This document shows, piece by piece, positions 21,161 through 58,086 of a DNA stretch of 64,000 nt (its first letter is position 1; each line of letters opens with the position of its first letter). This DNA is from Thelonectria olida (taxonomy: Eukaryota > Ascomycota > Sordariomycetes > Hypocreales > Nectriaceae). The notes under the pieces were generated by a model that was not told the DNA's origin, made no database searches, and saw only the letters and a list, made by a program, of their open reading frames with translations. The DNA lies in NCBI GenBank assembly GCA_020736575.1, contig JAGPYM010000022.1, positions 62,001 to 126,000 of the forward strand. Reading direction: 5' to 3'. The translations under genes were made by a program, and so were the position numbers.

Positions 21161-21687
21161 CTTCTTCCCCCTCGACGCACGGATCGCGTAGCGAACTGAG
21201 ATTTTCCACGCGAGGATTCACGGCCACATCTTGCTCGCCACAGTTGTTTAGTTTTTTGACCACTCACTCAAGTGACTTTGGCCGCGTCTCTTCCTGTCTC
21301 ATCTGATCCCACTCATCTCATCTCATCCCATCTCATCATCCTTTTCCATTCTCTTCCAGCCATGTCGACAAAGCGACACGCACATACACGACGCCAAAAT
21401 GTATGTACCCCAAATCTTCGGGACCAGCCCGGCATTACCGACGTGAATTCTGCTTCTCCCTCTTCGGACATGCCTGGCAGGACGAGGAAGCTGCCATTTC
21501 GATGCGATGATGGGGTCTGAAACAGGGTCGCCATGGTTCCGCGCCATTGGCGACGTCGCCTGTCTCAACATTGTCTCCAGGCCTTCGACCGGGCCTTTTT
21601 GATCCCAAGCATGGCCGCGTTGTTTTCGTCTTTGAGTCTCTCCTTCCCATCTTCCCTCCGCATATTTTCTCGATAAAAACTTCTACG

Positions 21688-24600
21688 ATGCCCCGCCAGG
21701 AGAAGGTTAGGGTTCTGATTGATGAAATCCGCCGCACGCTGGAGGATCTCGATGGCCGACGCATTCAGAACCGAGCGCGAGGAGGGTCGGGACCGCCGCG
21801 TCAGAATACTCGCCGGGCTCGTCAAGAGCCAGTCAGAGTCTCCCCCGACGAGGTCCGACGTACGCTGGAAGACCTAGAACGCCGGAACGCCCGAGGGCGT
21901 CCACCTCGACGACAGAAGGTCACGGTCACGGAAGATGAGCTCGCGCGTACGATGGCAGCCATCACGCGGCAACACGCCGAGGAACGCTCACAGGCAAGGG
22001 CCGCAAGGCTACGAAGGCAGGAGCAGGCGGATGAGCCCGGCCGTCAAGGACCCGGGGACGCGCCGCGGACCCCGCCACCGGCCACCCCCGGAGAGATCGT
22101 CCCGGCCCCACACACTCCGCCGCCTACACGGCCTATCCCGCACACCCCGCTCCCTCGAAAACGCCTCGGGGAGCCACAACTAGAAGGACTTCTGACTCCG
22201 CCGCCCACGAGGCCGGTCCGCCCCCAGAAAAGGCCGAGGCCGTCGCAGGACACTGCCCCTGCCCAACGAAGATCCCTCGAGACCATTCTGCAATACCATG
22301 AGTCTCGTTTTCGCGACAAAGAGAAGGAATCAGTAGCAAGATCCTGGTGCAAAGAGGTACCACTTGCCCTCCAGGTGGAGACTGCAAAGTCCTTCCACCA
22401 GGCATTCGCAGATGAAAGGACGTTGCCGATTTTGCACTGCAACTTTTGCTACAGGAAGCAGCCTCCTTCCGAGCTTACGACGATCCGATGGAAGAGGCAC
22501 TTGGCAGCCTCCTTGCTGCGGGCCATGACGGCGCTCCAGGAGTGCGGGGAACGTTTTCCGGTTGGCGACGACGCTGAAGCTATGGTTTGCCACGAATGCT
22601 ATGCCGCTTTGAAGAAAGGGAAACTGCCGAAGACCTGTGCGGTCAACAACATGTACATCGGATGCGAGCATCGGTATCCCGAGGAGCTTGACGACCTCTC
22701 TCCTGTTGAAGAGAGGCTAATTGCTCTGCAGGCTTCCTTCGGCTACATCACAAAGTTCACTGTAGACAACAAGACCCCGTCGGGCCTCAGTTACCGGAAG
22801 CATGTGAAGGGCCATATCGTGGTCTTTCCGAACAAGGTGGAGGATCTTGTTGCCACGGTCCTTCCTCATCCTCTTTTGGAGACTATCGAGAACATCCACG
22901 TCTCTTGGAGCGGCTCCAGCAATCCTGGCGCCGCAGACGTTGGGCATCTTCTTCAAGTGCGCAAGTCCCGTGTCCGAGCTGCCCTGTCGTGGCTCCAGGA
23001 AAACAATCCGCTTTACGAGCACGTCACGATCGACCATGGCGAGATTGATGGCTGGCAGTACGCAGACGGCTCCGATGTCCCTATCCCTATCATGGACAGC
23101 ATGCAGCGGGAGGAGCCGTCCGTTGCCGAGAAGACGCAAACAGACCACATCGTCCCAGATACCGATCTCGGCCTCGAAGAGAACCGGCTTACGAGCATTG
23201 AAGAGCTCCTTGAGTCGGCGCAAGCCCACTGCAGCCACGACTCCTGCCTTCCCGAGGGCACTCCGTCGGGCGAACCGGACCTCCCCTTGCCCGGGGAACC
23301 CCATACTTCCATTCCTGATCCGGAGGATGCCGGCGGCGATGGTGAAGTCATCCATGAGACGACGTCCTCCGGCATGTTTCCCCTCGACGGTCCGGCCGCT
23401 TTCGAGGAGGCCGATAAGCTTTCATTCCTAGCCGACGCTATCCGGACGAGTCGGACTCGGGCTGCCGATGAGGGTGAGCCGTGCGCGATACATGTCCAAG
23501 CAACGGGAGAGCAACCGTTCATCCTGGTGGAACGAGGTGCGGACTTTGCGGACAGCCTGCACGAGGACTTCTTCCCGCGCACCTTCCCGAAGCTTTTCCC
23601 CTGGGGGAGAGGTGGCCCAAAGGCGCTGCACGAGTCGGACCGCGATCAACAAGATGCTTCGGAGGCTGCCAAGCGCCATCCAAACCACTCGCTCAGCTAT
23701 TGGGCCAGATACGTGCTGCAGCGGCATGGGGGTCGATTTGCCACCCATCCCGTCTTTTGTTTTCTGGTATTCAATATCCTCCTCCGTTCTTCTAATCGCC
23801 GCATCAGCATGGTGCGCACGACAAAGGGCTCTTTCGAGAGGGTTGAACGGGTTTACGGAACCCTGACGGATGACCGGCTGAAGAGAGCGGAGGACGAGAT
23901 GCGAGAAACAAGAATGACGACGGACGCTGACGTAGCGTTCCTGCTCCGTGAGTTGTCCATCTTTGGCCATGCACAGCCGCTCTCCAACGAAACGCGACTG
24001 CTTATGCGCAGGAAGATCCAGGCACTTAACATCTGGACCGGCACGCCCGCGATTTGGATTACCATCAACCCCAACGACATCAACAACCCAGTCAAGATGA
24101 AGCTCTCCATCCATAGGCTCCACGAGTACCGCACTGCAAAGGAGCTCTTAGCGGATCTCCGGTGAAGATACGACAGAATCGCCCTCAGCACCATGGATCC
24201 GGTCAGCTCTGCCATCTTCTTCCACAGAGAAATCTCTCTGTTCTTCGAAAAATACGTCAGAACAGACCAAGAATCGGTCTTTGGGAAGGTCAGCCACTAT
24301 TATGCAACGGTGGAGACGAATGATCGCGGCAGCCTGCATTTGCACGGACTCCTGTGGTTGCACGGCAACATGGAGCTGCCGTCGCTCATCGACGACATCG
24401 CCGACCCCCGAGAAGAAGAGTATCGTGCCCGAGTAGTGCGCTACGTGGACTCGGTCTTCCACGAGTGCCTGGATGAGGACGCTGGAAAGGCTCTCCGCCA
24501 GGAGCGGAAGCCGATCCACCCCGTCGAGGAGATGATGAATGACACTGAGGCCCTGTCTGCGGCCTTTGACGCCGAGTCCAACTTCATCGCATATTGCTGC

Positions 24601-25311
24601 CAGGTTCATTCCCACACCTACACCTGCATCAAGTATTCTCTGAAGGGTCTCGCAAATCAGGGCGCGGACAAGTACAGGCGAACAGCTTGCCGGTTCAAAG
24701 CGCCTTGGAAGATCGTCGATACGACGGGATTGACCGAGGACGATCTGCTCATCATCCGTCGCAACCACCCACTCGTCAACCGGTATAACAAAGCGATAGC
24801 GGTCGGCCTCCGGCACAATCACGATGTATCGATGATCTTGACGAGGACCAAGGGGCTGGCCATGGTGTTTTACATCACCAACTATGCCACGAAGTTGGAC
24901 ACGCCAATGCGGAGACGAATTGCCCACGCGGCCGAAGTCTTGCGACAGCTTCGCGAAGATGCCGTTTCGAGGCGCGACGCATCAGCATCCGCCGACCAAG
25001 GCGCCCAGCGACCTGCTGTGCTGAACCAGAGTCGCCAGTTTCTGATGAGGGTGGCTAATCGGATATTTTCTGAGAGACAGCTCTCTGCCGTGGAGGTATG
25101 TTACCACATGCTCGGCTATCAGACGGACTTTACCAACGTCCCGCACTGGTCCTTCCTAAACCTGACCGCACTGTATTGGGCGGTATTCCGGAGATGGATA
25201 CACCTCCGTCGCCAGGCCGGCGCAGAAGCGGAGGAGGAGGAGCCGCCAGAAACGGTACAACTCAGGGAGGGTGGCCGGACCCTGTTGTGCTTGGATACTT
25301 ACGCCTTGTGA
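21688..25311 (+). pseudogene. Helitron Rep protein (DUF6570 + Helitron-like N domain) with one in-frame stop
   Basis: The frame is open from 21547; the ATG at 21688 (MPRQEKVRVLIDEIRRTLED) is the likelier start. It runs to a TGA at 24163-24165 and continues in the same frame to 25311. In order it has an Arg/Pro-rich N-terminus with TPPP repeats, a zinc-binding C-x2-C region (HCNFCYRKQPP ... VCHECYAALKKG), a DUF6570-like block (NNMYIGCEHRYPEELDDLSP) and the Helitron-like N domain (SYWARYVLQRHGGRFATHPV). After the stop come DPVSSAIFFHREISLFFEKY and the HUH nickase motif SLHLHGLLWLHG. Rep nicks and joins DNA ends during rolling-circle transposition. A single base change from a sense codon explains the stop, so inactivation is recent. 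The C-terminal PIF1 helicase is absent. Confidence 0.85.
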
Positions 25312-33919: not shown

Positions 33920-34125
33920 TATATGGCTGCCTGATGTGGGACTCGATAAATGTTGGGCGCAGCAGGCAGATGGCCTTTCAGTCGTGATTTGCAAGTCAGC
34001 TCGTCTTTGCACGCCAGCTCGAGAGGAGCAGCGGTTTTATATGGCTGCCTGATGTGGGACTCGATAAATGTTGCGCGCAGCAGGCAGATGGCCTTTCGAT
34101 CGTGATTTTGCAAGTCAGCTCGTCA
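33920..34125. repeat. Tandem duplication of about 117 bp upstream of the secreted protein gene
   Basis: The block TATATGGCTGCCTGATGTGG ... GCAGATGGCCTTTC ... GCAAGTCAGCTCGTC occurs at about 33920-34005 and again at about 34037-34125, separated by GCACGCCAGCTCGAGAGGAG-type sequence. The second copy leads into the 19-bp array. Confidence 0.88.
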
Positions 34126-34350
34126 TTGGCAAGTCAGCTCGTCATTGGCAAGTCAGCTCGTCATTGGCAAGTCAGCTCGTCATTGGCAAGTCAGCTCGTC
34201 ATTGGCAAGTCAGCTCGTCATTGGCACGCCAGCTCGTCATTGGCAAGTCAGCTCCTCATTGGCACGCCAGCTCGTCATTGGCAAGCCAGCTCCTCATTTG
34301 CACGCCAGCTCGTCATTGGCACGCCAGCTCGTCATGGCACGCCAGCTCGT
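34109..34350. repeat. 19-bp minisatellite (about 13 units)
   Basis: The unit is GCAAGTCAGCTCGTCATTG (19 bp). Two main variants alternate in the right half, AAGTCAGCTCG and ACGCCAGCTCG, with a few CTC-for-CTCG changes. Because 19 is one more than a multiple of three, the array is open in all three plus frames; those frames are an artefact of the repeat. Confidence 0.95.
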
Positions 34351-34679
34351 GTTTGACTTGACTTGACTTGAATTCCTACTTGGTTTCGGCCGCACTTTTC
34401 TGCGGCTATGCCCGGTGAGCGGGGATTGACTGACCGCCCCACTTCGCCATGTTGACGTACATGACCAGCTGTCCCCAATTTCCCGCTTTTCTATTTAACC
34501 TCTATCTACGATAGCCTGCCAGCTCTCTAGAAATTGATTCTCTACTAATCCGTCTGCGATATACGGCTCCCTCGAGGCCATTGCCTCTCTTTTGGGTCCT
34601 TGTACCTACAGTCTCCCCCTAGTGCTCAGCTTCGTCTGATTAGGTCTCGATCCTGAATTGCTTAAGGATTTAAGTTAGT

Positions 34680-40477: not shown

Positions 40478-42117
40478 CTACAAGAGGATTTGCAGACTTT
40501 CAAATAATTGTCTTGTTTCTGCTGCCAGATTCGTCAACCTCTGCATGGCATCAATTATGCTTTGGTCTGGCTGATTCCCGATGAAATCCTGCGGTCGTAC
40601 GGGACTGAGAAGCTTGATGCCTTGTAAAGTCCTGCACCGGGAGAGCTGCACATAGAGACTTGTAAAGTCGCATTTCGAAGGTTGGCCATTGGTCATACGA
40701 TTTCCACGCAACTCCAGGAGCACCTCCACAAACGTCTTGCCCTGGGCTTTATAGTCAGTCAGGACAAAGGCTGGGACAACTGGCAACCCTCGCCGAGCGC
40801 ATTTTCCGGATAGGAACCTGTAGTGGGAGTTGGCTGGATCGAGGGTATGTGTGATAGGCCGGATGAGCACGGTACCCGTTGGGAGGGCTGGGATGGCTAG
40901 ATCCTTTGTCTCTGGCGACTCTAATAATAACCCTAGTGGCGGACCAAAGTGGATGGTAACGTCATCCGCAAGATGGTAGCCCGGGGATTTCGGATCGGGA
41001 ATGACGTCCGCAGCGGTAAATTCCGCCCCATTGACAACTTTCAAGCCGGTGTACGTGTTTTTGTTGACGACTACAGGCATCCCCTGGGCGTAGAAGAAGA
41101 CCCCAGGGACCTTGCAGTTGGAGTTGTCGCCTTGTTCAATGGCCTGGGCCACCTCTTGCTGGGATAAGGCTCGACTGCGCCAGGTGTGGCTCGAGATAAA
41201 GACCGAGATGTGTCTCTCGTGAAAGCGGGCCCAGCCTACCACGGCTTCCATGTTGAGGCTCATCGGTTGCGATTAAGCGGTGTTATGGCGCGCAAGCCAC
41301 CCTTGAAGGTGATTTGGGAGCGGTCCACGAGCTTGGTGTTGAGCAGGTCAAGGTCCTCTAATGTCTGAGTTCCAGCGCGTACCCTGTCCAAAAGAGCACC
41401 TAGCCGAGGATCGTCTCGCGCGCAGACTTGTTCTTCGAGAAGAATGACAGTCTTGAACATCAGCCATAGACTGTGGCCACGGTGGTGAGCAATGGTCGCC
41501 TGTCCCAGGGAGGCCATGTAAGCCAAATCTACCATCCGGTCCACCAGGAGACTTGTCTCAAGCACGGGGGCGAACTGATAGAAATCCCCCATCAAGAGAA
41601 CAACAGGAATACCTCCAAATGGCTTGTCAGGACAGTCACGGAGGGCCTGGAGGCGGCAGTTGGCATTGAATAGAGTGGTTCCCCCGAGCATGCTCACTTC
41701 GTCGATCACGAGAGCCAACTTCTGCTTCCACATCCATTTTTTCGCTTCCGAGAACATTGGAGGCTGCTGTTTGTTGTGAGAACGACGGATATCCAGTCCG
41801 CAGGCCGAGTGGAGTGTCGTCCCACCGATCTGAGCGGCCGCACTGCCTGATGTGCCGGTAATCTGGATATGATGTGGCTGGCCTCTAGTGGTGAATACGT
41901 CCCGCAAGGCATCGACAATCCTAGACTTTCCAGTACCGCCTGGACCTCCGACGTACTGAAGATGTTGACCAGCGGAGTCAGGATTGGCAATATACTTGCC
42001 CAAGAACCGGCACACAAGTTGAAGTGCCATGCTCTGCAGATCGTTGAGCGTATAGCTGGAGGCGGCAAGAAGTCCTAGCTCCGCGAATCCTCTGGTGGGG
42101 CCTACCTCAACAAACAT
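40478..42117 (-). pseudogene. Helitron PIF1-like helicase with one frameshift
   Basis: Frame 42117-41260 carries a Walker A GGPGGTGKSRIVDAL, Walker B ALVIDEVSMLGG and later SF1B motifs (PVVLLMGDFYQFAPV). It ends at a TGA immediately after ITPLNRNR. The overlapping frame 41263-40478 continues as SLNMEAVVGWARFHERHISV, GLKVVNGAEFTAADVIPDPK, ALPTGTVLIRPI and the C-terminal LYVQLSRCRTLQGIKLL. The family pattern runs straight through the junction, so a single-base deletion near 41262 broke the gene. The N-terminal Rep half is missing upstream. Helitron helicases unwind donor DNA during transposition. Confidence 0.85.
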
Positions 42118-43440
42118 TCGAGGACTTTGTACGTCCGAGTCTTCCAGCCGTCTCGGAATGGGGATGTCCGTGTCACACTGCCGAGCACTGCATTTGCTAC
42201 CTTCGTGCAGCAGCTAGGGCTTGTTGATGTGAAAGAACGGCTGCAGAAGACTGAGCAGCTTGAAGACCTGACTGAAGCAATTGATCGGCTGACCTTGAAC
42301 CTCGAATTTGACGCCCAAAACACCAAGGAACCTGGTCGTGATACTAGCAGTTAAAGCCGTGATGGCTTCAACTGGGGGGGTATGTCAGATGAAGGAGGCA
42401 GGTACAGCCGAGATGACTAAGGAACTTTAGATGGGAAGGGAGACAATTACCCCGCATCTACAGCCTCAACACAGACATGAAGAACAGATGCAACACATCA
42501 CAATTGATCAATTGAATAGCCTCACTTTGAGGCCCTTATTATCATATTTGACGTGTGAATTCTATCACTTTTGAACCTACCTTTCGGTCCGGCCCTTCTA
42601 ATCTTCCGGATCCGACAAGATGATTGGAGATATCTAAATGTTGTAGTATTAGATAAAAATGGACGCCACGCCTAAGGGGCGGCTTGCCCAGATGGAAAAT
42701 AAACTAGCAGGCGTGAAGGAGCTCCCGGTTGGTGCCTATTTCCCTGAGGCGATGATTGCTTGCTGCCACTCTTCCTTTTCTGACTGGGTCATCCTACATG
42801 TAACGATCTGGTCGATGCCCAACGGTAGACTAGACTGTTTTGGGTTTATGTTGGCGGATAGATCAGGGCGTTAACGGCTCTGAGCAATAAACAAAGGTGT
42901 TACGTCTGGTAATGTGCTCAAAGGGTATTGAGTGCAGATGGTGACGGGCCGAGACTCCCGTTAGATGAGGATCTAACGATGATTATAAAAGAACGATATT
43001 GTTGATCTCACTCGCTAGACCACCAGAATCCTAGGTTCCTCGGGACAGGATGGACAGTGCCAAATTAAGCCCATCTGAGGATATTCAAACGTCGTCATCA
43101 GCACCGCGGACGCGAACAGTTTCATGGTACTATATAGTATTGGGCAAAGTTAATCGCCGCAAAACGAGATCATTATGCGGAATGGTATAGCTTTTCTACG
43201 GGGGGTCTCGGCCTCGTCACACGCCACTTACCCTCGGGACTGGGCCGAGACCCCTGAAGAAAAGCCCTATCGACTGATTAGTGCGGGCTAGACCTATGAA
43301 TATCAAGCCGATTCGTTTCACCGCCTTTCGGCTGGTCCGGGCATCATTATTGTGATGAAACTCGTCGTTGGCATCGCCATGATGCTCAAGATAATTGCTT
43401 CATTAGTCCTGTTTGGCTGGCTCTTCCCTGCTGGAATCAT
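42118..43440. other. Gene-poor stretch
   Basis: A plus-strand frame at 42127-42354 (TEQLEDLTEAIDRLTLNLEF-like helical sequence) may be coding debris. Otherwise only an inverted repeat at 43191-43265 was seen. Confidence 0.4.
43191..43265. repeat. Inverted repeat / potential hairpin
   Basis: GGGGTCTCGGCC at about 43203-43213 pairs with GGCCGAGACCCC at about 43243-43254, and the outer GCTTTTCT/AGAAAAGC arms also pair imperfectly. The loop is about 30 nt. No tRNA or known RNA pattern fits. Confidence 0.7.
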
Positions 43441-43940: not shown

Positions 43941-44222
43941 GTGAGTAAGGGGATGATGAATGACCTATGTGACCTGACCAAGGACAGAGCGATCAAAGCA
44001 GCAATGAAAGATCAAGTCGGGGGATTGCGCGATGCAATCAACAAATTGTCAACAATGGAGCTGTCCGCGCCAAACGAGGGGTGGGGCAGCTCGTTTTCCA
44101 ATTATGGCTCCGGCACCCAATTCAACGCTCCTGGGGGTACTCAGAACATCAATTCAGGCAGTGGCAACCAATTCTCTGGGGCTGTGTTTAGTGGGTCTGT
44201 ACATTTTGGCAAGGCGTTTTGA
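43941..44222 (+). pseudogene. SesA-type NLR N-terminal domain fragment with sigma amyloid motif
   Basis: The frame encodes an amphipathic helix (LTKDRAIKAAMKDQVGGLRD followed by AINKLSTMEL) like the end of the fungal SesA/NACHT-N domain. Directly after comes a Gly/Asn/Ser-rich motif with the layout NYGSGTQFNAPGGTQNINSG then SGNQFSGAVFSGSVHFG. That matches the sigma-type prion-like motif carried between SesA domains and NLR receptors, which spreads amyloid folding from receptor to executor. The frame ends there, as in stand-alone sigma proteins, but the first half of the SesA domain cannot be read upstream, so it is likely truncated. Confidence 0.65.
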
Positions 44223-45832
44223 TAAGAACTTGCTTTTTGTTGGAAAACCCCAGAAAATCAGCATCAGCCGACTTACCCATGGCGGGCCCACTTACCTCTC
44301 ACTTTTATCTGGCGACGGTCTCATACTGTAGTGTGCCCGTTGAGGTTTCTCACCAAAACCCAAAATACGCTAATGATGACAGGGGGGTGTGACCGTTGAA
44401 CTTTTTGGGTTCAAATGAGAAAAGATTAACACCAAAGGATGCCCGTAAGCTTGTATTTAATTATATTGGGGTTTCAGAACGAAATAGTCAAACGGTGAGG
44501 CGTAGAAGCTGGGTTTGTTATTGTGGTCGCGGGGGCATGAGTGGTGGAGAGCAAGATAAAAGTGGAACCCCATAGAAAAAGCAACCAACATTCAGAAGGT
44601 GCTTTAATATAGGTTATAGCCCGCCGAGGGAGAGGGACGCAGGCAGGCAGCCAGACAGGCCACCGTCGACCCAGTAAAGACGATAGAGTATCATGACAGC
44701 AATGATTATTACTATGGATCCGTGTACACTGTTTTCCCTCCCAGCCACACCTGTAGTGGTGCTGCGATGTTGAATGTCTCGACCATCTGCTCGAGAATCT
44801 TCCCAATTGTCACAGGAAGCCAAAATCAGGCATGGCCTACGGAACTGGAGCAGCAGCCAATGCTGGATTGTAAAAAAGGACTGTCATGCTAGGCCCATCC
44901 ACTACCTCGAAGCTGGGATATGCACCCACCAAAAACATTTCTCGACAAGTTTGATCATTAAAATGTTGTGCAAGAACAGGGAAACACTTTAGAATCTTGA
45001 AAGTTTGCTTTGGCCAGATGTATTCCTAATTATAAAGTGAATCTCATAATATCCTCCTCCAGACTAAGCGGGCAAGGTCAGCATCATCACAGGCGACGTC
45101 TGATGAGACTACCTTTACTGGTATTAGGGAATACAATCAGACGCGTGCTTGGAGTTGAAGGTTTTCGGCTCGTTCATTATACAAGCTTCGAAGACGAATT
45201 GAATTCTATTCTAAAAATATTTTCTGACAATCGACTCTACAGGCAAAGCTTTTCAGGCTCTTACGAACAATACCTACTTGCCTATGTTAAATGAGCAGTA
45301 TAGAGAGGACATCCGTGCCTATGGGAATGAAGGGCGGGCTTACTGTAGCCATTGTCCTTCAATATAACTGGCCAGTCAGCAGCCACTAGTTTTCGCAACA
45401 GGCTTGATTGAACCCGCCACAGCACTGCCGCAGCTAAGCGGACGAAGTGCCGAACATGCACAAATACTGATGGTGTGGAATGACTCTCAAGGTCAAGCCA
45501 CAGATTGTTCTCGTCATCTTCAGGTTCGAGCCACTTGCTAGATCGTGCGCTTCGGATCAAAAACCACCCGCGCCACTTTGGAATTATTGCCTCGCGACGG
45601 ACGACCTCAAGCCACAGCAAAGCACCCTCTACACACACACAGCCTATTCACAGACTATCAACACGTACCCGCCAAATTTAGATGTATATAAAGGGTTTCG
45701 ATATCCCAAGGTATGTCTTTTCTCTCATCAGCATCAATCACAATCATCATCACAACAGTCTACTATCATCCACCAATCCCACACAGATAATCCCTACCTA
45801 CCTTACTCTCCAACACAAATCTCCTCGCCAAA
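44223..45832. other. Gene-poor stretch
   Basis: Unrecognised frames at 45010-45294 (plus) and 45282-45638 (minus) are not supported by any motif. 45640-45832, CA/CT-rich, is the probable promoter and 5' UTR of the secreted protein gene. Confidence 0.4.
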
Positions 45833-46444
45833 ATGCACTTCACTTCGACAACCCTCGCCATCCTTCTCGCCGCCTCCACCGCCCTGGCAAGCCCCCTTAA
45901 CTCTCACCGTCGCCGCGACGATACCGACCAAGGCTCAGGCGCCGACATCTTCCCAGAATTTGACCGCTACAATGACTGGGCAATCTGCCAGGGCAAAATC
46001 ACCAAGGAACGCTTCCCAAACCTCCAAGCTCCAAGTGATGATGGCGGCTGTGTCCGCTACTATCGGGGCATCGACATGACCGGCGTCGTCACAGAGCGAC
46101 ATTTCTTCTTCAAGGATGGCTTCAAGTCTGCCTGCGACTGCGCCGCCGTATGTCTTGAGAACCCGACCACTTGTACGAACTGGGTGTGGAAGCACACTTT
46201 CATGCCCGAGGATGGCGGCAAGAGGTCGTGCACTATCTACAGCAGCCCCAATCTGCCGACCGATGTAACCCTTGCATATAATACGACATTGAGCAAAGGC
46301 TTTGCACTATTGCAGCCTGGGAATAACCCTCAGGCTGGAGCCCCGGCCCCGTTGACTTTCATGGATGCGGCAAATACTATCCCGGATCAGTTTGGGGTAT
46401 CTGGTTTTGTGGTCCAGGATCAGAATCAAAGACAGTTCTGTTAG
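45833..46444 (+). CDS. Secreted apple/PAN-like protein
   Basis: A single exon of 203 aa. The ATG at 45833 (GCCAAAATGC context) begins a clear signal peptide, MHFTSTTLAILLAASTALAS, followed by a possible Kex2 site (HRRRDD). The mature part has ten cysteines, with a central cluster SACDCAAVCLENPTTCTNWV and KRSCTIYSSPNLP that resembles the fungal PAN/apple-like fold (two disulfides around an alpha helix packed on a sheet). The C-terminus reads QFGVSGFVVQDQNQRQFC. There are no catalytic residues. Such proteins may bind carbohydrates or proteins at the cell surface. Looks intact. Confidence 0.85.
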   Translation: MHFTSTTLAILLAASTALASPLNSHRRRDDTDQGSGADIFPEFDRYNDWAICQGKITKERFPNLQAPSDDGGCVRYYRGIDMTGVVTERHFFFKDGFKSACDCAAVCLENPTTCTNWVWKHTFMPEDGGKRSCTIYSSPNLPTDVTLAYNTTLSKGFALLQPGNNPQAGAPAPLTFMDAANTIPDQFGVSGFVVQDQNQRQFC

Positions 46445-47003
46445 GAGGTGGTGGTATAATGTACCGTATTCAACCGGGGAGTTGTAAGGGTGCTGAAGCT
46501 GCTAGCAACATGGCTCAGTCTTGAGACGCTTCATGGCTGGGTTGTTGGGCAGTATTGATACGTTTATTTCCCTTCTCCTCCCCTTTCTATCATTTCCTGC
46601 TCTTTATTTTACATTATCTGCTTTTATATTATCAGATAGCTCTGCGTTTTTCCTTACTAGATAGCCATAGAATAGATCAACGTCGCTCCTTCACTCCTTC
46701 TCATACCTAGGGAGTCTGAACTAAATGTTCCTCCTCTTTTACTCTTCCTTCCTCCTTATGTTCCGTTCTAAAAACGGCGCTTATCGACGGCGTACCATCG
46801 AGAATCCCGATAATTCCAGAGATAAGGCCGATGATCTCAGCACCAGACATGTCTGATTAGTTTGAAGTTGCGGTCGTTGGCACAGTTGACCCTGCAATAA
46901 GTCTCAGTTAGTCCGGTTTCTCTACTTAGCGGAAGTCGTCTACTCACCTAGTAAGCAAGCGAAGACAAGAAGTCCGTATGGACCGAGCTTAGCAAGGTGG
47001 ACG
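46445..47003. other. Intergenic
   Basis: 3' flank of the secreted protein gene. TTATATTATCAGATAG-type AT-rich sequence, no gene seen. Confidence 0.5.
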
Positions 47004-47080
47004 CGGAAGAGGGCGCGGAAGAAAGAACCTTTCGTTCCTCAAGGCAAAGAACCTTTCAGAACTTCGTTCCTTAAGGCATA
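47004..47080 (-). repeat. Shared transposon terminus T1, copy 5 (reverse orientation)
   Basis: The reverse complement reads ATGCCTTAAGGAACGAAGTT, CTGAAAGGTTCTTTGCCTTG and AGGAACGAAAGGTTCTTTCT then TCCGCGCCC. It is an internally duplicated form of the block seen at 21101 and 31731. The GC-rich frames at 47095-47518 next to it are unrecognised. Confidence 0.82.
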
Positions 47081-47522
47081 CTAGGCAAGGCGAGCTACAT
47101 GAGAAGACCGTGGTCGGGCGAGACTCTCACGACGACAACCCGTCCGGATGGGCACCCCATGGCCACCGTCGACGCCGTCACGGCCGACCGTCTTGGTCGG
47201 TACGCCGGCGGCAGCCACAATACCCTGTGCGATTCCCAGGTGGCCCACACCGAATCTTCGCTAAGTCCGACGTCGCGACGTTTGACGTGTTGCGAGGCAG
47301 TACCTGGCGTGGACACGGCCACCGGCGCGGGCGTCGCTGATAGTTCTGTTGGCGTGGTGTGGCATGGTAGCGACGTGCTATCGGGCTCTAGTGTGCCGCT
47401 GCCGTTCCTTATATTCCTCAATCGTTGTGCGGCCATAAAGAAGAGATTTGCAGAAATAGCAAATGATATTAGTGATCTCTTTTATGGCAACTTCGCCACG
47501 GTCCAAGTTTGCTGCTAGAATT

Positions 47523-50500
47523 CTACGCACCGAAGTGAACAAACTGCGCCCACGCCAGCGGCATCTTCAACTCTGTCTTCCGCACTTCCATCACAGCATC
47601 CCGGAGTGCCAAAGCCACCTCTCGGCCGTCCCAACAAGTCGTCTTTCCCCTGAGCAGCGACCGATAAAATCGACCTGCAACTTCCACACAAACCCGGTCG
47701 ATCGATGGCCAAAGACACCCAATTACATGCGGAAAGCCAGCTATCTGAAACCCGCTCACTATATGAATCACCTCGTCCGACAGCCGTGCCGCCCCATTCT
47801 CCGCCGTTGAGCAAGCTGACAGGTATGCTATCTGTGCGTTGCTAAGGCTCAACTCCGATACGGTGTGCACAGTTAACCTGTCCTGCTCACCCTGACTTTG
47901 CAAGATCAGTCCGCTCTTAGAAGGATCCAAATGGTCTGTAAATCCATGGCAGGCAAAGTGCGCAATATAGCAGTTTCGCAGGCTCTCAACAACATCCTCC
48001 ACGCTTGGCAACTCCTGATATTGTATGGGAAGATGGCCATTGACCACGCCCATCAGCTGGTTCTTCTCTTCTTCAACACCTGGAAGGTCAGGGCATAAAG
48101 AGTTACCTGGCGTAGTCGGCATGGTAGCAATCAGAACCGATCCTTTGACACTTTCTGCAGCCCTAGCTCGATGCTGTGCATGCGCAAGTGCCTTGATGGA
48201 TGGAGTATAGGACGAAACAACTCTACTGAACGCATTCTCCGTTGAATCAGCAGAATGTATTCCCGCGGCATGAAAAGGCATCGAGCTGGCAAGGCCCGTC
48301 CCGATCCACCATATCCTCGGCAGGCTGTTGGCCGTGTCGTGGCTGTGGCAAACTTCATCAAGAATCTGCTTGACGCACGTCTTCCACAGCCAGGACAGAT
48401 AGTCGAGGTATTCTCTGTTCTTCTGTGCGCGTTCTGATCTGCGGCCTGTCCATTTCTTGTCTAGCCAAGTCCTTGCATCCTCGGCAGCCATCATCGGCAG
48501 ATTGAGTGTCTTGATGGTTGTTGGAGAAACTATAATCGCGTCACTTCGAAGTGTTGTAATGTTGACGACGATGATGCTCCCCCCGGCGGCGCACTCTTGC
48601 ATCTCTGCCGTTTCCTGGCCTAGCATGAATCGCTCGTGGCCAGCAGTCCCTCTGATCTCGTGAATGCATGCGTCGAGCTCAGCCAGGGCTTCAAGACGGC
48701 GAATTCGCAACTGTGCCTGTATTATGCCTTGCTCCACTTGACGGAGCGGGGTGTTGACTTCGTCTCGGAGCTGTTGGTATCGGCGAGCGATATCGGGATG
48801 CTGCTGCTCCAAAAGGGACAAATCACTCCGGGAGTCCATCAGCTGGCCAATAATTACAGCACGGCCCTTCTCGAGGTACCGAAGGGCTTCAGCCGTCTGG
48901 TTCGATTGAAGAAGGAAAGCGCACAAGTCAGCGGCGACGCCACTGAAAGTCGAGACGACGAACTGCTGATCACTGCGGTCGAGCAATTTCGTATTTACGC
49001 TCGGGAGTAGGTCGATAATATTTTTCCCAAGGTCTATAGCGATATCGGTCTTGTGTTGAGGAGCGAGGAGTTTCAGGCATCGGGCACCGGCTTGGACACG
49101 ATGGAAGGGAATGGCAGATTGACAATGCCAAGCATCTTGTAAAGTCAACGAAGCTTCTTCCAGATCCGCCATCTCACCTGTCCGCTCATGCCGGCTCTCA
49201 AGAAGAACTCCGAGGTTGGTCAACCAGCGTGCCTGGTCGGGATGGTCGTCTGGTGTCGAGTTAACAGCTTGTCTTACTAGGCTGATAGCTTCTTCCAGAT
49301 CGGCCATCTCGCCTGTCCGCTCATACCGGTGACCAAGCTTGGTTCCTAGGTTGCCCAACCAGCCTGCCCGATCGGGATGGTCGTCCGGTATCGAGTCAAC
49401 AGCTTGTCTCGCTATACTGATGGCTTCTTCCAGATCGGTCATCTCGCCCGTCCGCTCATACAGGCTCCCAAGAAGAACTCCGAGGTTGTTTAACCAGCGT
49501 GCCTGGTCGGGATGGTCGTCTGGTGCCGAGTTAACAGCTTGTCTTACTAGGCTGATAGCTTCTTCCAGATCTGCTATCTCGCCTGTCCGCTCATACCGGT
49601 GACCAAGCCTGGTGCCTAGGTTGTTCAACGCGCCTGCCCGGCGGGGATGGTCGTCCGGTATCGAGTCAACAGCTTGTCTCGCTATACTGATGGCTTCTTC
49701 CAGATCCGCCATCTCGCCTGTCCGCTCATACCGGCTCCCAAGAAAAACTCCAAGGTTGTTCAACCAGACTGCCCGGTCGGGATGGTCGTCTGGTGTCGAG
49801 TTAACAGCTTGTCTTACTAGGCTGATAGCTTCTTCCAGATCTGCCATCTCACCTGTCCGCTCATACCGCCGACCAAGCTTGTTTCCTAGGTTGCTCAAGC
49901 AGGCTGCCCGGTGGGGATGGTCGTCTGGTGTCGAGTCAACAGCTTGTCTCGCTATATCGATGGCTGCTTCCAGATCTGCCATCTCGCCTGTCCGCTCATA
50001 CCGGCTCTCAAGAAGAACTCCGAGGTTGTCCAACCAGCGTGCCCGGTCGGGATGGTCGTCTGGCGTCGAGTCAACAGCTTGTCTTGCTATACCGATGGCT
50101 TCTTCCAGATCCACCATCTCGCCTCTCCGCTCATACCGGCTCTCAAGCTTGGCTCCTAGGTTGGTCAACCAGCCTGTCCGGCCGGGATGGTCGTCTGGTG
50201 TCAAGTTAACGACTTGTCTCGCTATACTGATGGCTTCTTCTAGATTGGCCACCTTGCCTGTCCGCTTATACCGGCGACCAAGCTGGTTTCCTAGACTGCT
50301 CAAGCAGGCTGCCCGGTCGGGATGGTCGTCCGGCGTCGAGTCAACAGCTTGTCTTGCTATACCGATGGCTTCTTCCAGCTCTGCCATCTCGCCTGTACGT
50401 TCATACTGTCTCTCAAGAGAAATTCCGAGGTTGTTCAACCAGCCTGCTTTGTCGGGATGGTCGTCTGGTGTTGAGTTAACAGCTTGTCTTGTTAGGCTGA

Positions 50501-50903
50501 TAGCTTCTTCTAGATCGGCCATCTCGCCTGTCCGCTTATACCGGAGGGTAAGCTTAGTTCCTAGGTTATTCAACCAGCTTGCCCGGTCGGGATGGTCGTC
50601 CGGTGTCAAGTCAACAGCTTGTCTCGATATACCGATGGCTTCTTCCAGATCGGTCATCTCGCCTGTCTGCTCATACCGGCTCTCAAGAAAAACTCCGAGG
50701 TTGTTCAGGCAACCGGTTAGGTGAGGGGAGGTATCTGGAATTATCATCAAATCCAGTTGAGCGGCCTCAACAGCTAAATGAATGTCTGACACATCCCCAG
50801 TCTCTTGGAATTTCTCGTATGCCTCTATCGCAAGGCCTGATAAAACGCTAGGCATATCTTCCACGTCGATACCTAGTTGCTGGAAAGTTTGCTGTAGATC
50901 CAT
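47523..50903 (-). CDS. TPR-CHAT caspase-like protease
   Basis: A single open frame of 1126 codons. Residues 1-58 are a short helical leader (MDLQQTFQQLGIDVEDMPSV). Residues about 59-600 are 12 TPR-type units of exactly 45 aa (consensus HPDRAGWLNNLGTKLGHRYE with RTGEMADLEEAI). A helical linker follows, then from about 830 the CHAT domain (Caspase HetF Associated with TPRs). The catalytic dyad of the family is present: His near 986 in AHFACHGFTDH and Cys near 1031 in IAYLSACSTAENG, encoded by GCA (plus strand) at 47811-47813. The end, WAQFVHFG, is typical. CHAT proteins are cysteine peptidases of the caspase/separase clan; TPRs usually serve as sensor or scaffold. No NACHT or NB-ARC ATPase is present. 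The divergent neighbour 300 bp upstream is a gasdermin-like candidate, its likely substrate. Confidence 0.93.
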   Translation of the reverse strand: MDLQQTFQQLGIDVEDMPSVLSGLAIEAYEKFQETGDVSDIHLAVEAAQLDLMIIPDTSPHLTGCLNNLGVFLESRYEQTGEMTDLEEAIGISRQAVDLTPDDHPDRASWLNNLGTKLTLRYKRTGEMADLEEAISLTRQAVNSTPDDHPDKAGWLNNLGISLERQYERTGEMAELEEAIGIARQAVDSTPDDHPDRAACLSSLGNQLGRRYKRTGKVANLEEAISIARQVVNLTPDDHPGRTGWLTNLGAKLESRYERRGEMVDLEEAIGIARQAVDSTPDDHPDRARWLDNLGVLLESRYERTGEMADLEAAIDIARQAVDSTPDDHPHRAACLSNLGNKLGRRYERTGEMADLEEAISLVRQAVNSTPDDHPDRAVWLNNLGVFLGSRYERTGEMADLEEAISIARQAVDSIPDDHPRRAGALNNLGTRLGHRYERTGEIADLEEAISLVRQAVNSAPDDHPDQARWLNNLGVLLGSLYERTGEMTDLEEAISIARQAVDSIPDDHPDRAGWLGNLGTKLGHRYERTGEMADLEEAISLVRQAVNSTPDDHPDQARWLTNLGVLLESRHERTGEMADLEEASLTLQDAWHCQSAIPFHRVQAGARCLKLLAPQHKTDIAIDLGKNIIDLLPSVNTKLLDRSDQQFVVSTFSGVAADLCAFLLQSNQTAEALRYLEKGRAVIIGQLMDSRSDLSLLEQQHPDIARRYQQLRDEVNTPLRQVEQGIIQAQLRIRRLEALAELDACIHEIRGTAGHERFMLGQETAEMQECAAGGSIIVVNITTLRSDAIIVSPTTIKTLNLPMMAAEDARTWLDKKWTGRRSERAQKNREYLDYLSWLWKTCVKQILDEVCHSHDTANSLPRIWWIGTGLASSMPFHAAGIHSADSTENAFSRVVSSYTPSIKALAHAQHRARAAESVKGSVLIATMPTTPGNSLCPDLPGVEEEKNQLMGVVNGHLPIQYQELPSVEDVVESLRNCYIAHFACHGFTDHLDPSKSGLILQSQGEQDRLTVHTVSELSLSNAQIAYLSACSTAENGAARLSDEVIHIVSGFQIAGFPHVIGCLWPSIDRVCVEVAGRFYRSLLRGKTTCWDGREVALALRDAVMEVRKTELKMPLAWAQFVHFGA
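49140..50727 (-). repeat. 135-bp tandem repeat encoding the TPR array
   Basis: About 12 units of 135 bp, for example recurring GATGGTCGTCTGGTGTCGAG at regular 135-bp steps. Units 8-11 alternate between two subtypes (ISIARQAVDS and ISLVRQAVNS), giving a 270-bp higher-order repeat. Confidence 0.95.
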
Positions 50904-51203
50904 TTTTGGCGGAGAGTGTTCAAAGGGACCTAGATTGATGGAGACTCTGGACTCTGATCCTGTTGGGTTTTATCAGAAGCAAAGGATCAGAGGCGCATGG
51001 GTCGCTGAGGTGTCTCACTCAGCCCAAAGGCCACGTCACGATGTGTGATGTTTGTGCTAGCGGTTAGTCGGTTCAGCCCCAAGCCACCACCCCTCCGAAC
51101 TAACACAAGGAAGACATCGGCGGCCTCCTGCGGTGAGAGCCAGTCATAAATATCATGCTACGCAGACCTGACGAGAATCTTCCAGCTTTGTGCCGCAAGC
51201 AAC
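50904..51203. promoter_or_regulatory. 300-bp divergent promoter of the CHAT / gasdermin-like pair
   Basis: The region separates the two start codons and must contain both promoters, so the two genes are probably co-regulated. No specific operator was identified by eye. Confidence 0.55.
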
Positions 51204-52037
51204 ATGACACGAAGCATCATCCTCACACCCTTTTTCCTGCCACAGGACTCCGTCAAACTTGGCCGCTTCGTCACCAGAATCGACCATCCCCACCAGAACC
51301 ACCATGATCCTCCGTCTGCAGGTCAACCCCGCGTGCTAGTTTCGCTCGTCGACTCCTACACTGTTGAACATGAAACAACCAGTCATTCCGCCTTCAATGC
51401 GTCTTTAACATCTCTGCTGTCGGCCAGCTTCTCTAAGCGCGCTAAGATGAAGATTCGTGTGGCCACGGATCGTGTCAAGACCTACACCCTCGATAATTCC
51501 GACAGTTGGTTTGACGAAGCGATAGGCCTAGCCGCCACCCGAGGCTGGATCGAGCGAGCAATAGATCGAGGGGAAGACATATACATGATCGTCGGCTATC
51601 GCACGGTCATGAATGCCAGTATTAGCCAGGCGTCGATCATGGGAAACAGCGCTGGCGGCCAGACTACGGTTCCAGCTACCCTGTCCCTTACTGCAGCTGG
51701 AGTCATTGCGCCGATCGGGGGTCTGCTTGACCCTAGTGTTGGGATCCATCAACAGGGCTTGGATGGAGCGACATCGCAATTCGTGGCACCGGGTGAACAG
51801 GTATGCGCGTTAGAATATCGCAAACTTTGCCACCGATGGCTCTCCAGCAAGCACGTAGACAACTCTCGATTGTCGGGCGTGCGTCAGTGGCCATCGATGG
51901 AGAGATCGAGGGATGAGGAGGACGGCGAAGACGATGTAATCGAGGTCGAATTGACAGAAGTGAACGGCTTGGATGGAGACTGGGATAAGGAGGTCGTGGG
52001 AAACCAGGCCTTATTCATGCGTTCATTCGAGAAATGA
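51204..52037 (+). CDS. Gasdermin-like candidate pore-forming protein
   Basis: A single exon of 277 aa. There is no signal peptide and no transmembrane helix. Early segment: VKLGRFVTRIDHPHQNHHDP. A long strand at residues 124-140, EDIYMIVGYRTVMNASI, is followed by a Gly/Ser-rich loop (about 145-180) and a second strand with a turn at 193-205, FVAPGEQVCALEY. This layout (strand, long loop, strand with a Pro-Gly turn) is that of the second beta-hairpin of gasdermin N-domains. The last 40 residues are highly acidic (RSRDEEDGEDD), a possible releasable C-terminal region. Size equals that of known fungal gasdermins such as HET-Q1, which have only a short C-terminal inhibitory part and are cleaved by a protease encoded next door. 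The divergent CHAT protease fits that role. No close motif signature exists, so the fold must be confirmed. Confidence 0.5.
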   Translation: MTRSIILTPFFLPQDSVKLGRFVTRIDHPHQNHHDPPSAGQPRVLVSLVDSYTVEHETTSHSAFNASLTSLLSASFSKRAKMKIRVATDRVKTYTLDNSDSWFDEAIGLAATRGWIERAIDRGEDIYMIVGYRTVMNASISQASIMGNSAGGQTTVPATLSLTAAGVIAPIGGLLDPSVGIHQQGLDGATSQFVAPGEQVCALEYRKLCHRWLSSKHVDNSRLSGVRQWPSMERSRDEEDGEDDVIEVELTEVNGLDGDWDKEVVGNQALFMRSFEK

Positions 52038-56226: not shown

Positions 56227-58086
56227 ACGTACATGATAAGCGAGTCGGAAATACAAGCGAGTCGGAAAAAAATCCCCCAACCACCTTCATTTTCCTTTAA
56301 TCAATTATTTCTCAACCACCAAGTATGCCACAGTTAAGCAAAGAGAAAAATATTATCCTCGCCCTTCAGGCTCTTCGAAACGACCCAAAATTACGCATCT
56401 ATCCCGCTGCAAGGATATATAAAGTCCCGCCTAGCACCCTCTATGATCGATATTATGGCAAACCTTCTCGAGGCGATATTATCCCGAATTCACGCAAACT
56501 ATCCGATCTAGAGGAACAGATCATTATTGAATATATTATCGACCTAGACTCTCGAGGGTTTCCCCCTCGGCTTCGTGGTGTGGAAGAAATGGCCAACCGA
56601 CTGCTCGCCGACCGCGACGCGTCACCCGTCGGCAAGCGCTGGGCTTCCAACTTCGTCAGGCGACAACCAGACCTAAAGACGCGTTTTAATCGTAGATACG
56701 ATTATCAGAGGGCTAAATGCGAAGATCCGGCCATTATTCGCCATTGGTTCAGGCTCGTGGAGAACACAATCGCGAAATACGGTATCAACCTAGCTGACAT
56801 CTACAACTTTGACGAGACTGGCTTTATGATGGGCATCATTGCAAGCGGAATGGTTGTCACGGGCGCAGAAAGACGTGGAAAGGCGAAATCAGTGCAGCCT
56901 GGAAACCGGGAATGGGTTACGGCCATTCAGGCGATCAATGCCGAAGGCTGGGTGATCGCGCCGTTCATCGTGGTTGCGGGCCAATATCACCTCGCTAATT
57001 GGTACCAAGAAAGCAACCTCCCGGACGATTGGGCTATTGCGACGACTCATAATGGCTGGACCGACAATGATACAGGTCTTGAGTGGCTCAAACACTTCGA
57101 TCAACACACCAAGGCCCGATCAACCGGTCGCTATCGTCTTCTGATCCTCGATGGGCATGACAGCCACCACTCGGTCGACTTTGAGAAATATTGCGAAGGC
57201 AACCACATCATCACGCTGTGTATGCCGGCTCATTCGTCTCATCTACTCCAGCCTCTTGACGTCGGGTGCTTTGGTCCGCTCAAAAAGGCATATGGTCGAG
57301 AAATCGAGCATCTGATCAGGTGCTCGATAACCCATGTTTCCAAGACCGACTTCTTCCCGGCCTTTTGTGCCGCCCACGAAGCCGCGATGACAAGGAGTAA
57401 TATTGAGGGAGGTTTTCGAGGGGCGGGACTTGTTCCCTTGAACCCAGAAAATGTCATATCGAAGCTTGACGTGCAGCTACGGACTCCAACACCGATTAGA
57501 GAGGAGGTCGGCCTCCCCGACCCTTGGGTTTCTAAGACACCAAAGACAGTGCTTGAGGCTAGCTCACAGTCTGAATACCTCGAAAGACGAATCAAAAGGC
57601 ATCAGAGTAGCTCACCTGCGTCTATTCTTGAGGCCCTGAAGTCATTGACTAAGGGAACAAAGGCAATAATGCATAAGATGAGCTTATTAGAGTCTGAGGT
57701 CCAGGACCTTCGACAGTCAAATGAGACCCTTAGCAAGCGGCGCAGAGCGAAAAGAACCCGGCTGCGAAATGGAGGGAAGATGACTGTAGGTGAGGGGAAG
57801 GATGAGATTAATCAGAAAGACGTTGATGCGCAGGTGAGGGCGGAATTATCGAGAAGTGGTGATCGGGGAAGGTCGGGGGCGGCGAGGGAAAGGCGGTGTG
57901 GAATATGTAGTAAGGCTGGTCATAACTCAAGAACATGTCAGATTGTTGTTGAAATATCTGGAGAAGAGAATAGCGATTAGTTTCAATTGATTTAAGGCTT
58001 TATTTTGATTTTATCTAGAATTCTATCTGGAGGGTGAGGATTTTTTTCCGACTCGCTTGTATTTCCGACTCGCTTATCATGTACGT
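56227..58086 (+). mobile_element. Complete Fot1/pogo DNA transposon (1860 bp)
   Basis: Terminal inverted repeats of about 50 bp: ACGTACATGATAAGCGAGTC at the left end is mirrored by GACTCGCTTATCATGTACGT at the right end, with the near-perfect match continuing inward. The element is flanked by TA on both sides (56225-56226 and 58087-58088), the target duplication expected of the Tc1/mariner/pogo superfamily. The termini hold two copies of AAGCGAGTCGGA, likely transposase-binding sites. It encloses one intact transposase. Confidence 0.96.
56325..57980 (+). CDS. Fot1/pogo-family transposase (DDE_1), intact
   Basis: 551 aa, single exon. The N-terminus has the paired helix-turn-helix/CENP-B-type DNA-binding region (ALRNDPKLRIYPAARIYKVP, LADRDASPVGKRWASNFVRR). 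The DDE_1 core shows YNFDETGFMMG for the first Asp, RLLILDGHDSHHSVDFEKYC for the second and HLLQPLDVGCFGPLKKAY for the third. A C-terminal zinc knuckle, CGICSKAGHNSRTC (C-x2-C-x4-H-x4-C), is an extra found in several Fot1-like enzymes. No stop or frameshift is seen, and the TIRs are complete, so the element may be functional or only recently silenced. Confidence 0.95.
   Translation: MPQLSKEKNIILALQALRNDPKLRIYPAARIYKVPPSTLYDRYYGKPSRGDIIPNSRKLSDLEEQIIIEYIIDLDSRGFPPRLRGVEEMANRLLADRDASPVGKRWASNFVRRQPDLKTRFNRRYDYQRAKCEDPAIIRHWFRLVENTIAKYGINLADIYNFDETGFMMGIIASGMVVTGAERRGKAKSVQPGNREWVTAIQAINAEGWVIAPFIVVAGQYHLANWYQESNLPDDWAIATTHNGWTDNDTGLEWLKHFDQHTKARSTGRYRLLILDGHDSHHSVDFEKYCEGNHIITLCMPAHSSHLLQPLDVGCFGPLKKAYGREIEHLIRCSITHVSKTDFFPAFCAAHEAAMTRSNIEGGFRGAGLVPLNPENVISKLDVQLRTPTPIREEVGLPDPWVSKTPKTVLEASSQSEYLERRIKRHQSSSPASILEALKSLTKGTKAIMHKMSLLESEVQDLRQSNETLSKRRRAKRTRLRNGGKMTVGEGKDEINQKDVDAQVRAELSRSGDRGRSGAARERRCGICSKAGHNSRTCQIVVEISGEENSD

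Follow-up and report, generated by a model that had tools for sequence, protein, structure and literature searches.

The DNA analysed here, referred to below as the window, is a stretch of 64,000 nucleotides from Thelonectria olida (C81:62001-126000 of a 52.5 Mb assembly of 165 contigs, here labelled C with a number). It contains two intact open reading frames (ORFs) of 1126 and 277 amino acids in divergent orientation, with 300 bp from start codon to start codon (Table 1). The locus is likely a two-gene cell-death module composed of a fungal gasdermin (fGSDM) and a TPR-CHAT protease. The ORF coordinates bear out the gene layout of the initial annotation, which had described an intact 1126-codon TPR-CHAT gene and, 300 bp away on the other strand, an intact 277-codon gene. 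The two genes are less than 10 kb apart, and TPR repeats are fused to the protease domain, as in an fGSDM-protease cluster of the Q2L type.

The gasdermin identity suggested earlier for the 277-aa gene is supported by a profile link to fGSDMs of the same genome that match solved gasdermins. These were reached through ORFs beside other protease genes, at loci with CHAT and S8 matches close together; two such loci, C80 and C115, yielded fGSDM ORFs. The 5 kb upstream of six other CHAT loci yielded no fGSDM, either with the 277-aa profile or with the fGSDM profile described below. In single-sequence searches of the PDB, the C80 protein matched HET-Q1 (9uv9, E 2.8e-14) and the C115 protein matched RCD-1 (8jyz, E 2.2e-9). 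Searches with the C80, C115, C9 and C24 proteins then found further fGSDM loci. The fGSDM profile (A3) was built from the five proteins with uninterrupted frames (C80, C115, C9, C24 and C155), with the 277-aa family excluded. Against the PDB, it matched the HET-Q1 pore 9uv9 (1.4e-15), RCD-1 8jyz (4.1e-13) and the bacterial gasdermins 8sl0 (1.4e-7) and 7n51 (1.6e-7). Among 2008 ORFs, a profile of these five found the full-length 277-aa copies on C82 (E 1.5e-4), in the window (5.4e-4) and on C98 (8.9e-4); the next ORF, other fGSDM exons and shortened pieces of the 277-aa family aside, had an E value of 0.18.

In the hhalign comparison of the 277-aa family with the fGSDM profile, residues 4-219 were aligned with a probability of 84% and an E value of 7.6e-6. 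When the first sequence defined the match columns, the probability was 91.8%, the E value 7.3e-7 and the score 50.9. None of 200 column shuffles scored as well (maximum 24.8, mean 13.6, standard deviation 2.4), the reversed family reached 12.3, and 74 decoy ORFs reached at most 21.6. The aligned features include an N-terminal proline and an LG motif, the region up to 'IYMIVGY' (YMVTG or YMVVG in the others), and 'VCALEYRK' (e.g. FIFAFRLRK). Homology to the fGSDM N-domain is thus traced through five proteins of the same genome, two of which match HET-Q1 or RCD-1 singly and all five as a profile. Judged by these alignments, the 277-aa protein is homologous to fungal gasdermins. The family is too diverged for single-sequence detection.

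The initial annotation had proposed structure prediction and a fold search as a check on this assignment, and these gave no unrelated fold. A 12-row model, whose alignment included fGSDM rows, had a predicted local distance difference test score (pLDDT) of 49 and a predicted template modelling score (pTM) of 0.51, with 62 residues at 70-90. It contained long strands at residues 126-145 (51579-51638) and 190-208 (51771-51827), which presumably flank a membrane hairpin. Among the best 50 of 230 Foldseek matches of this model in the PDB, RCD-1 was first (E 2.1e-5), and the six matches with E ≤0.001 were all RCD-1. In the same best 50 of 230, the first 24 rows were all gasdermins (RCD-1, bacterial and GSDME), followed by other pore-forming proteins. 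We treat this low-confidence model as agreement with the gasdermin fold, not as proof of it.

The 277-aa gene evolves under constraint. Among its three full-length copies, the ratio of nonsynonymous to synonymous divergence (dN/dS) was 0.11, 0.18 and 0.27. Because these copies differ mainly at silent sites, the ORF is not a chance one, and we rejected that reading. The comparison between the window and the truncated C82 copy (dN/dS 0.94, 4 changes in 148 codons) is uninformative. At the C-terminus, acidic residues outnumber basic ones by 16 to 7, in agreement with the acidic tail noticed earlier. This tail is near-constant, as each pairing of the full-length copies shows 0 to 2 residue changes in it. 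The highest 19-residue Kyte-Doolittle mean was 1.55, at residues 156-174, and the five top stretches all started at residues 155-163. By this measure of hydropathy, the protein has no clear transmembrane helix and no strongly hydrophobic N-terminus, in line with the initial annotation. The latter result led us to reject a secreted protein. As given in PMC10989679, HET-Q1 has 278 aa and is cut by HET-Q2 at F238, which removes 40 C-terminal residues. The size match drawn earlier to HET-Q1 therefore holds, and the layout is similar.

The 1126-aa protein was matched in Pfam by TPR_10 (PF13374) in 11 stretches (E 3.9e-70) and, end to end, by the CHAT domain (PF12770, E 3.2e-40, residues 834-1125). 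The HFACHG motif contributes His986 (47946-47948), and the SACST motif contributes Cys1031 (47811-47813); the family His and Cys reported before are both in place. We take His986 and Cys1031 to be the catalytic pair, as expected of the CHAT family. Both motifs are kept in the two C82 copies and in the C98 copy, and the gene has further relatives, whole or partial, elsewhere in the genome. Over the last 560 codons, dN/dS was 0.21-0.23 in five of six comparisons among copies, and 0.36 between the window and the near-identical copy at the truncated locus. From these ratios, both the TPR-CHAT gene and the 277-aa gene are constrained and under purifying selection. No NACHT or NB-ARC match was found by Pfam with E up to 10, and we rejected a fungal NOD-like receptor (NLR) on that basis. 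A minimal sensor-protease lacking NACHT, as envisaged in the initial annotation, is consistent with the Pfam result; such an arrangement is not new, as TPR-, ANK- and WD40-fused proteases beside fGSDMs are described in PMC12881547.

The synteny check proposed with the first reading was run in this genome, and all three full-length 277-aa copies adjoin a TPR-CHAT gene. The neighbour is divergent at 300 bp in the window and at 305 bp on C82 (C82:584500, 1380 aa). On C98 the two genes are in tandem, separated by 1.6 kb, and the neighbour is an open frame of 1224 codons. The truncated C82 copy likewise faces a CHAT gene at 300 bp, the frame of which is interrupted. Of the 12 fGSDM loci found in the genome, 11 lie no more than 10 kb from a match to CHAT or to an S8 protease, compared with ~3% expected for a random point. 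The genome holds 80 such match places (38 CHAT and 42 S8), some of them belonging to one gene. The neighbour is CHAT at the C81, C82 and C98 loci, both types at C80 and C115, and S8 at C9, C94, C24, C155, C57:636 kb and C77; the exception is C57:274 kb. Four of the 12 (C94, both C57 loci and C77) are known from interrupted or partial frames. The count left out the truncated C82:450 kb copy, three remnants (C118, C81:548 kb and C102) and C1:1443995, a match (E 0.0195) that we dropped as a low-complexity acidic ORF. In published surveys (PMC10197012), ~80% of fGSDM genes are clustered with protease genes, ~63% with S8 and 19% with CHAT.

Some of these loci have a more elaborate organisation. On C80, a three-gene cluster (L050, C80:268900-274900; C80:268257-269246) consists of a TPR-CHAT gene, a convergent fGSDM gene ~0.1 kb away and ankyrin-S8 subtilase frames, and the C80 gasdermin has both protease types as neighbours. 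The C115 fGSDM (L051:97-3414) lies beside an S8 protease, with an upstream ORF carrying DUF7580 (E 1.7e-46) and a TPR-CHAT gene ~6-8 kb further. Two other TPR-CHAT genes were found next to genes of a different kind: a caspase-domain gene on C165 (PF00656, E 1.3e-9; L046:1102-3426) and a HET-domain gene on C78 (PF06985, E 3.1e-23; L049:2143-4137).

As described in PMC12881547 for the work of Clave et al. 2022, a gasdermin of Podospora anserina is activated by a TPR-CHAT protease from a clustered gene. The likeness to the present locus, compared by description only, is a gasdermin gene clustered with the gene of a TPR-bearing CHAT protease. The Thelonectria pair differs in its divergent arrangement at 300 bp, in having paralogs and in a gasdermin too diverged for single-sequence detection. 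The TPR-CHAT/fGSDM pair is a kind of system already described, and what is new is this example. HET-Q1 resembles the 277-aa protein in size, in the layout of its C-terminal tail and through the profile link via the five fGSDMs. The initial annotation also held that HET-Q1 is activated by a protease encoded next door, which we must correct: according to PMC12881547, the genes of HET-Q1 and HET-Q2 are not neighbours but idiomorphs that occupy a single locus. HET-Q2 belongs to the S8 serine proteases, whereas the protease here is a CHAT protein encoded by an adjoining gene. The hetB gene of Aspergillus fumigatus encodes a CHAT-domain protein of 1,327 residues that acts in heterokaryon incompatibility; as described in PMC11138114, it shares the CHAT domain with our locus but is an idiomorph of a short protein and is not known to have a gasdermin partner. 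Bacterial gasdermins clustered with proteases share the same two-part logic, and their structures match the fGSDM profile, so that the likeness is at the profile level. They differ in palmitoylation and in size.

Taken by analogy with these published relatives, namely HET-Q1 and the P. anserina TPR-CHAT cluster, the module would work as follows. The 277-aa protein would be a soluble, autoinhibited gasdermin, in which the pore would be made by a domain spanning residues 1 to ~219 and the last 40-58 residues, which are acidic, would keep this domain inactive. The larger protein, of 1126 aa, would be a receptor fused to its own effector, whose TPR array may recognise a ligand, such as a non-self molecule, a parasite product or a protein of the fusion partner. 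The caspase-like CHAT domain would then cut the gasdermin ahead of the presumably autoinhibitory tail, and the freed core would oligomerise in the plasma membrane and kill the compartment. We infer this sequence of ligand sensing, cleavage, pore formation and death from those two systems.

The main alternative is that the gasdermin needs no cleavage and is triggered when two diverged variants come together in the same cell, and that the CHAT neighbour has another substrate or only modulates the process. RCD-1 of Neurospora crassa, which is the model's first Foldseek match (best 50 of 230) and is connected by the profile link, sets the precedent: as stated in PMC12881547, two antagonistic allelic variants activate it, and no cleavage is involved. 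Three copies differing by ~5-6% do coexist in the genome. On the other hand, these three full-length variants reside together in one evidently living genome, an argument that assumes their expression. Moreover, the conserved acidic tail is about as long as the piece lost by HET-Q1, and together with the TPR-CHAT adjacency of the full-length copies it points to proteolytic control, in which RCD-1 differs. We therefore consider cleavage-free triggering unlikely.

Several results weigh against a gasdermin/TPR-CHAT module, and those on gene pairing would suit a different explanation, in which the two genes are neighbours through segment duplication alone and the CHAT protein acts on something else. 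The three full-length pairs are paralogs and not independent cases. A detected fGSDM lies within 10 kb of only 6 of the 38 CHAT match places (one of these fGSDMs is truncated). Synonymous divergence (dS) between C82 and C98 is mismatched, at 0.076 for the gasdermin and 0.247 for CHAT. Between the window and C82, dS is 0.21 for the gasdermin and 0.23 for CHAT, and since the two values are alike, joint duplication fits these pairs. Between the window and C98, the values are 0.16 and 0.23. The C82/C98 mismatch led us to reject the view that all pairs are simple joint duplicates.

The C98 gasdermin (L039, C98:219500-229400) is flanked by the decayed start of a divergent CHAT gene and, on its other side, by the open tandem CHAT frame. 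It probably came with a divergent CHAT gene, now decayed, and then gained the other CHAT neighbour, or was converted. As for the truncated copy, at least 6.6 kb (the searched part, window 45001-51647) is repeated in reverse orientation on C82 (L040, 446.5-456.4 kb) at 96-97% identity, and this segment carries another gene too. The duplicate stops inside the gasdermin gene at residue 148, and its TPR array is shorter. Nevertheless, adjacency by segment duplication alone is improbable in our view, given the protease matches near 11 of the 12 fGSDM loci, the distinct C80 fGSDM that also ends ~0.1 kb from a TPR-CHAT gene, and the clustering frequencies in the surveys of PMC10197012 (~80% with protease genes, 19% with CHAT).

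The remaining contrary results concern homology and would suit the idea that the 277-aa protein is another beta-rich fungal protein and not a gasdermin, which we hold to be highly improbable, since the profile-profile score greatly exceeds those of shuffles and decoys. For the 277-aa protein, no relevant match came from Pfam, PADLOC or PDB sequences, and NCBIfam gave one chance-level match. The Pfam Gasdermin model PF04598 had no match anywhere in the genome, despite the 12 fGSDM loci detected there. Nor does Pfam report a gasdermin for any of the five other fGSDMs; for this reason, we do not count the library blanks against a gasdermin. Fungal gasdermins are a gap in the family library (PF04598). 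On its own, the 277-aa family reaches no significant match to the other fGSDMs (E 0.16-0.3 for the C80 protein) and matches no PDB gasdermin in sequence searches. The 277-aa protein is also unlisted in searches with four other fGSDMs (C80, C115, C9 and C24) at an E limit of 1. Adding fragmentary exons to the fGSDM profile weakens the E values of the full-length copies to 1.6e-3, 6.2e-3 and 3.5e-3. A four-row model built on near-identical rows, without fGSDMs, was useless (pLDDT 27, pTM 0.17), and the 12-row model drew on an alignment that itself contained fGSDM rows. The TM-scores of the gasdermin rows were 0.15-0.52 among the matches listed (no higher than 0.38 by query or 0.52 by target), and HET-Q1 was not among the best 50 of 230 Foldseek matches. 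Searches of phages, plasmids and viral contigs found no relative of the 277-aa protein.

Returning to the gasdermin/TPR-CHAT module, the putative sensor is the variable partner. The TPR array of the window shows 11 registers, each 300 nt long and spaced by 135 bp; one serves as the reference, and the other ten are 67-92% identical to it. We recognised 12 TPR units in the window, 16 on C82 and 13 on C98. Mean identity between units was 73% in the window and 74% and 79% in the two other copies, and single pairs reached 91-98%. Dyrka et al. 2014 (threshold taken from PMC4986451) defined 'high internal conservation' of repeats in fungal NLRs as >85% identity over ≥100 aa; with means of 73-79%, we rejected this class for the TPR units. 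Codon variability was scored over 39 units of the three paralogs, with two degenerate last units left out. The most variable codons were 6, 7, 9, 10, 44 and 45 (entropy 1.88-2.69 bits; next 1.59), beside the invariant Leu4, Gly5 and Leu8. In a simple comparison of the proportions of nonsynonymous (pN) and synonymous (pS) differences, pN exceeded pS at codons 7 (0.66 vs 0.38), 44 (0.40 vs 0.00) and 45 (0.48 vs 0.17), but not at 6, 9 and 10; for the units overall, pN was 0.15 and pS 0.35. The variable codons would lie on the TPR surface. The TPR, ANK and WD repeats of fungal NLRs are reported in PMC4986451 to be polymorphic in number and diversified at certain positions. The likeness here, known from one genome, lies in the differing unit number between paralogs and in the few highly variable codons.

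It is also possible, although we find it somewhat doubtful, that the two genes form a complete receptor system of their own, lacking NACHT and serving allorecognition or defence, in which the TPR array sets specificity and the near-constant gasdermin is the executioner. The copies would then be differently tuned receptors feeding interchangeable gasdermins, and the locus a candidate for heterokaryon incompatibility. The locus adds a diverged gasdermin subfamily missed by the family libraries searched, and paralogous gasdermin/TPR-CHAT pairs with variable sensor repeats and a conserved executioner. If specificity does lie in the TPRs, the question of what activates fungal CHAT sensors could be tested directly by a comparison of their TPR arrays among strains.

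Table 1. Features of the candidate module in the window, and copies of the 277-aa gene elsewhere in the assembly.
Feature	Position	Strand	Basis or remark
Putative TPR-CHAT caspase-like sensor protease gene	47523..50903	-	one open frame, 1126 codons; PF13374, PF12770
CHAT protease domain, residues 834-1125	47529..48404	-	PF12770; His986, Cys1031
Array of similar 45-aa (135-bp) TPR units	49152..50802	-	repeat registers at 135-bp spacing
Divergent upstream region common to both genes	50904..51203	.	300 bp
Predicted fungal gasdermin (fGSDM) gene, 277 codons	51204..52037	+	profile match, purifying selection, model and fold search
Gasdermin N-domain-like core, residues 1-219	51204..51860	+	hhalign residues 4-219; model secondary structure
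Acidic C-terminal tail, residues 220-277, presumed autoinhibitory	51861..52034	+	16 D/E vs 7 K/R; role inferred from HET-Q1
Full-length copy of the 277-aa gene	C82:583364-584194		95%
Full-length copy of the 277-aa gene	C98:225263-226093		94%
Truncated copy of the 277-aa gene	C82:450204-450653		cut at ~residue 148
Three small remnants of the 277-aa gene	C118, C81:548 kb, C102		

The module sits in a transposon-rich neighbourhood. The ORFs around it include some with a Helitron N-domain and DUF6570, one for a PIF1 helicase and one for a DDE_1/Tc5-like transposase (window 21511-25308, 41263-42213 and 56301-57977). At 3.3 kb from the CHAT gene, a 93-aa ORF (window 43941-44219, +) has a C-terminal NACHT_sigma amyloid signalling motif (PF17106, E 3e-19) and no evident N-terminal domain; it is probably a remnant of another fungal cell-death effector. 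The genome also has Fungal_trans_2, NACHT_sigma and HET domains, which fit a filamentous fungus. Further from the module, a tandem array of a 19-bp repeat occupies window positions 34050-34372, in 12 registers.

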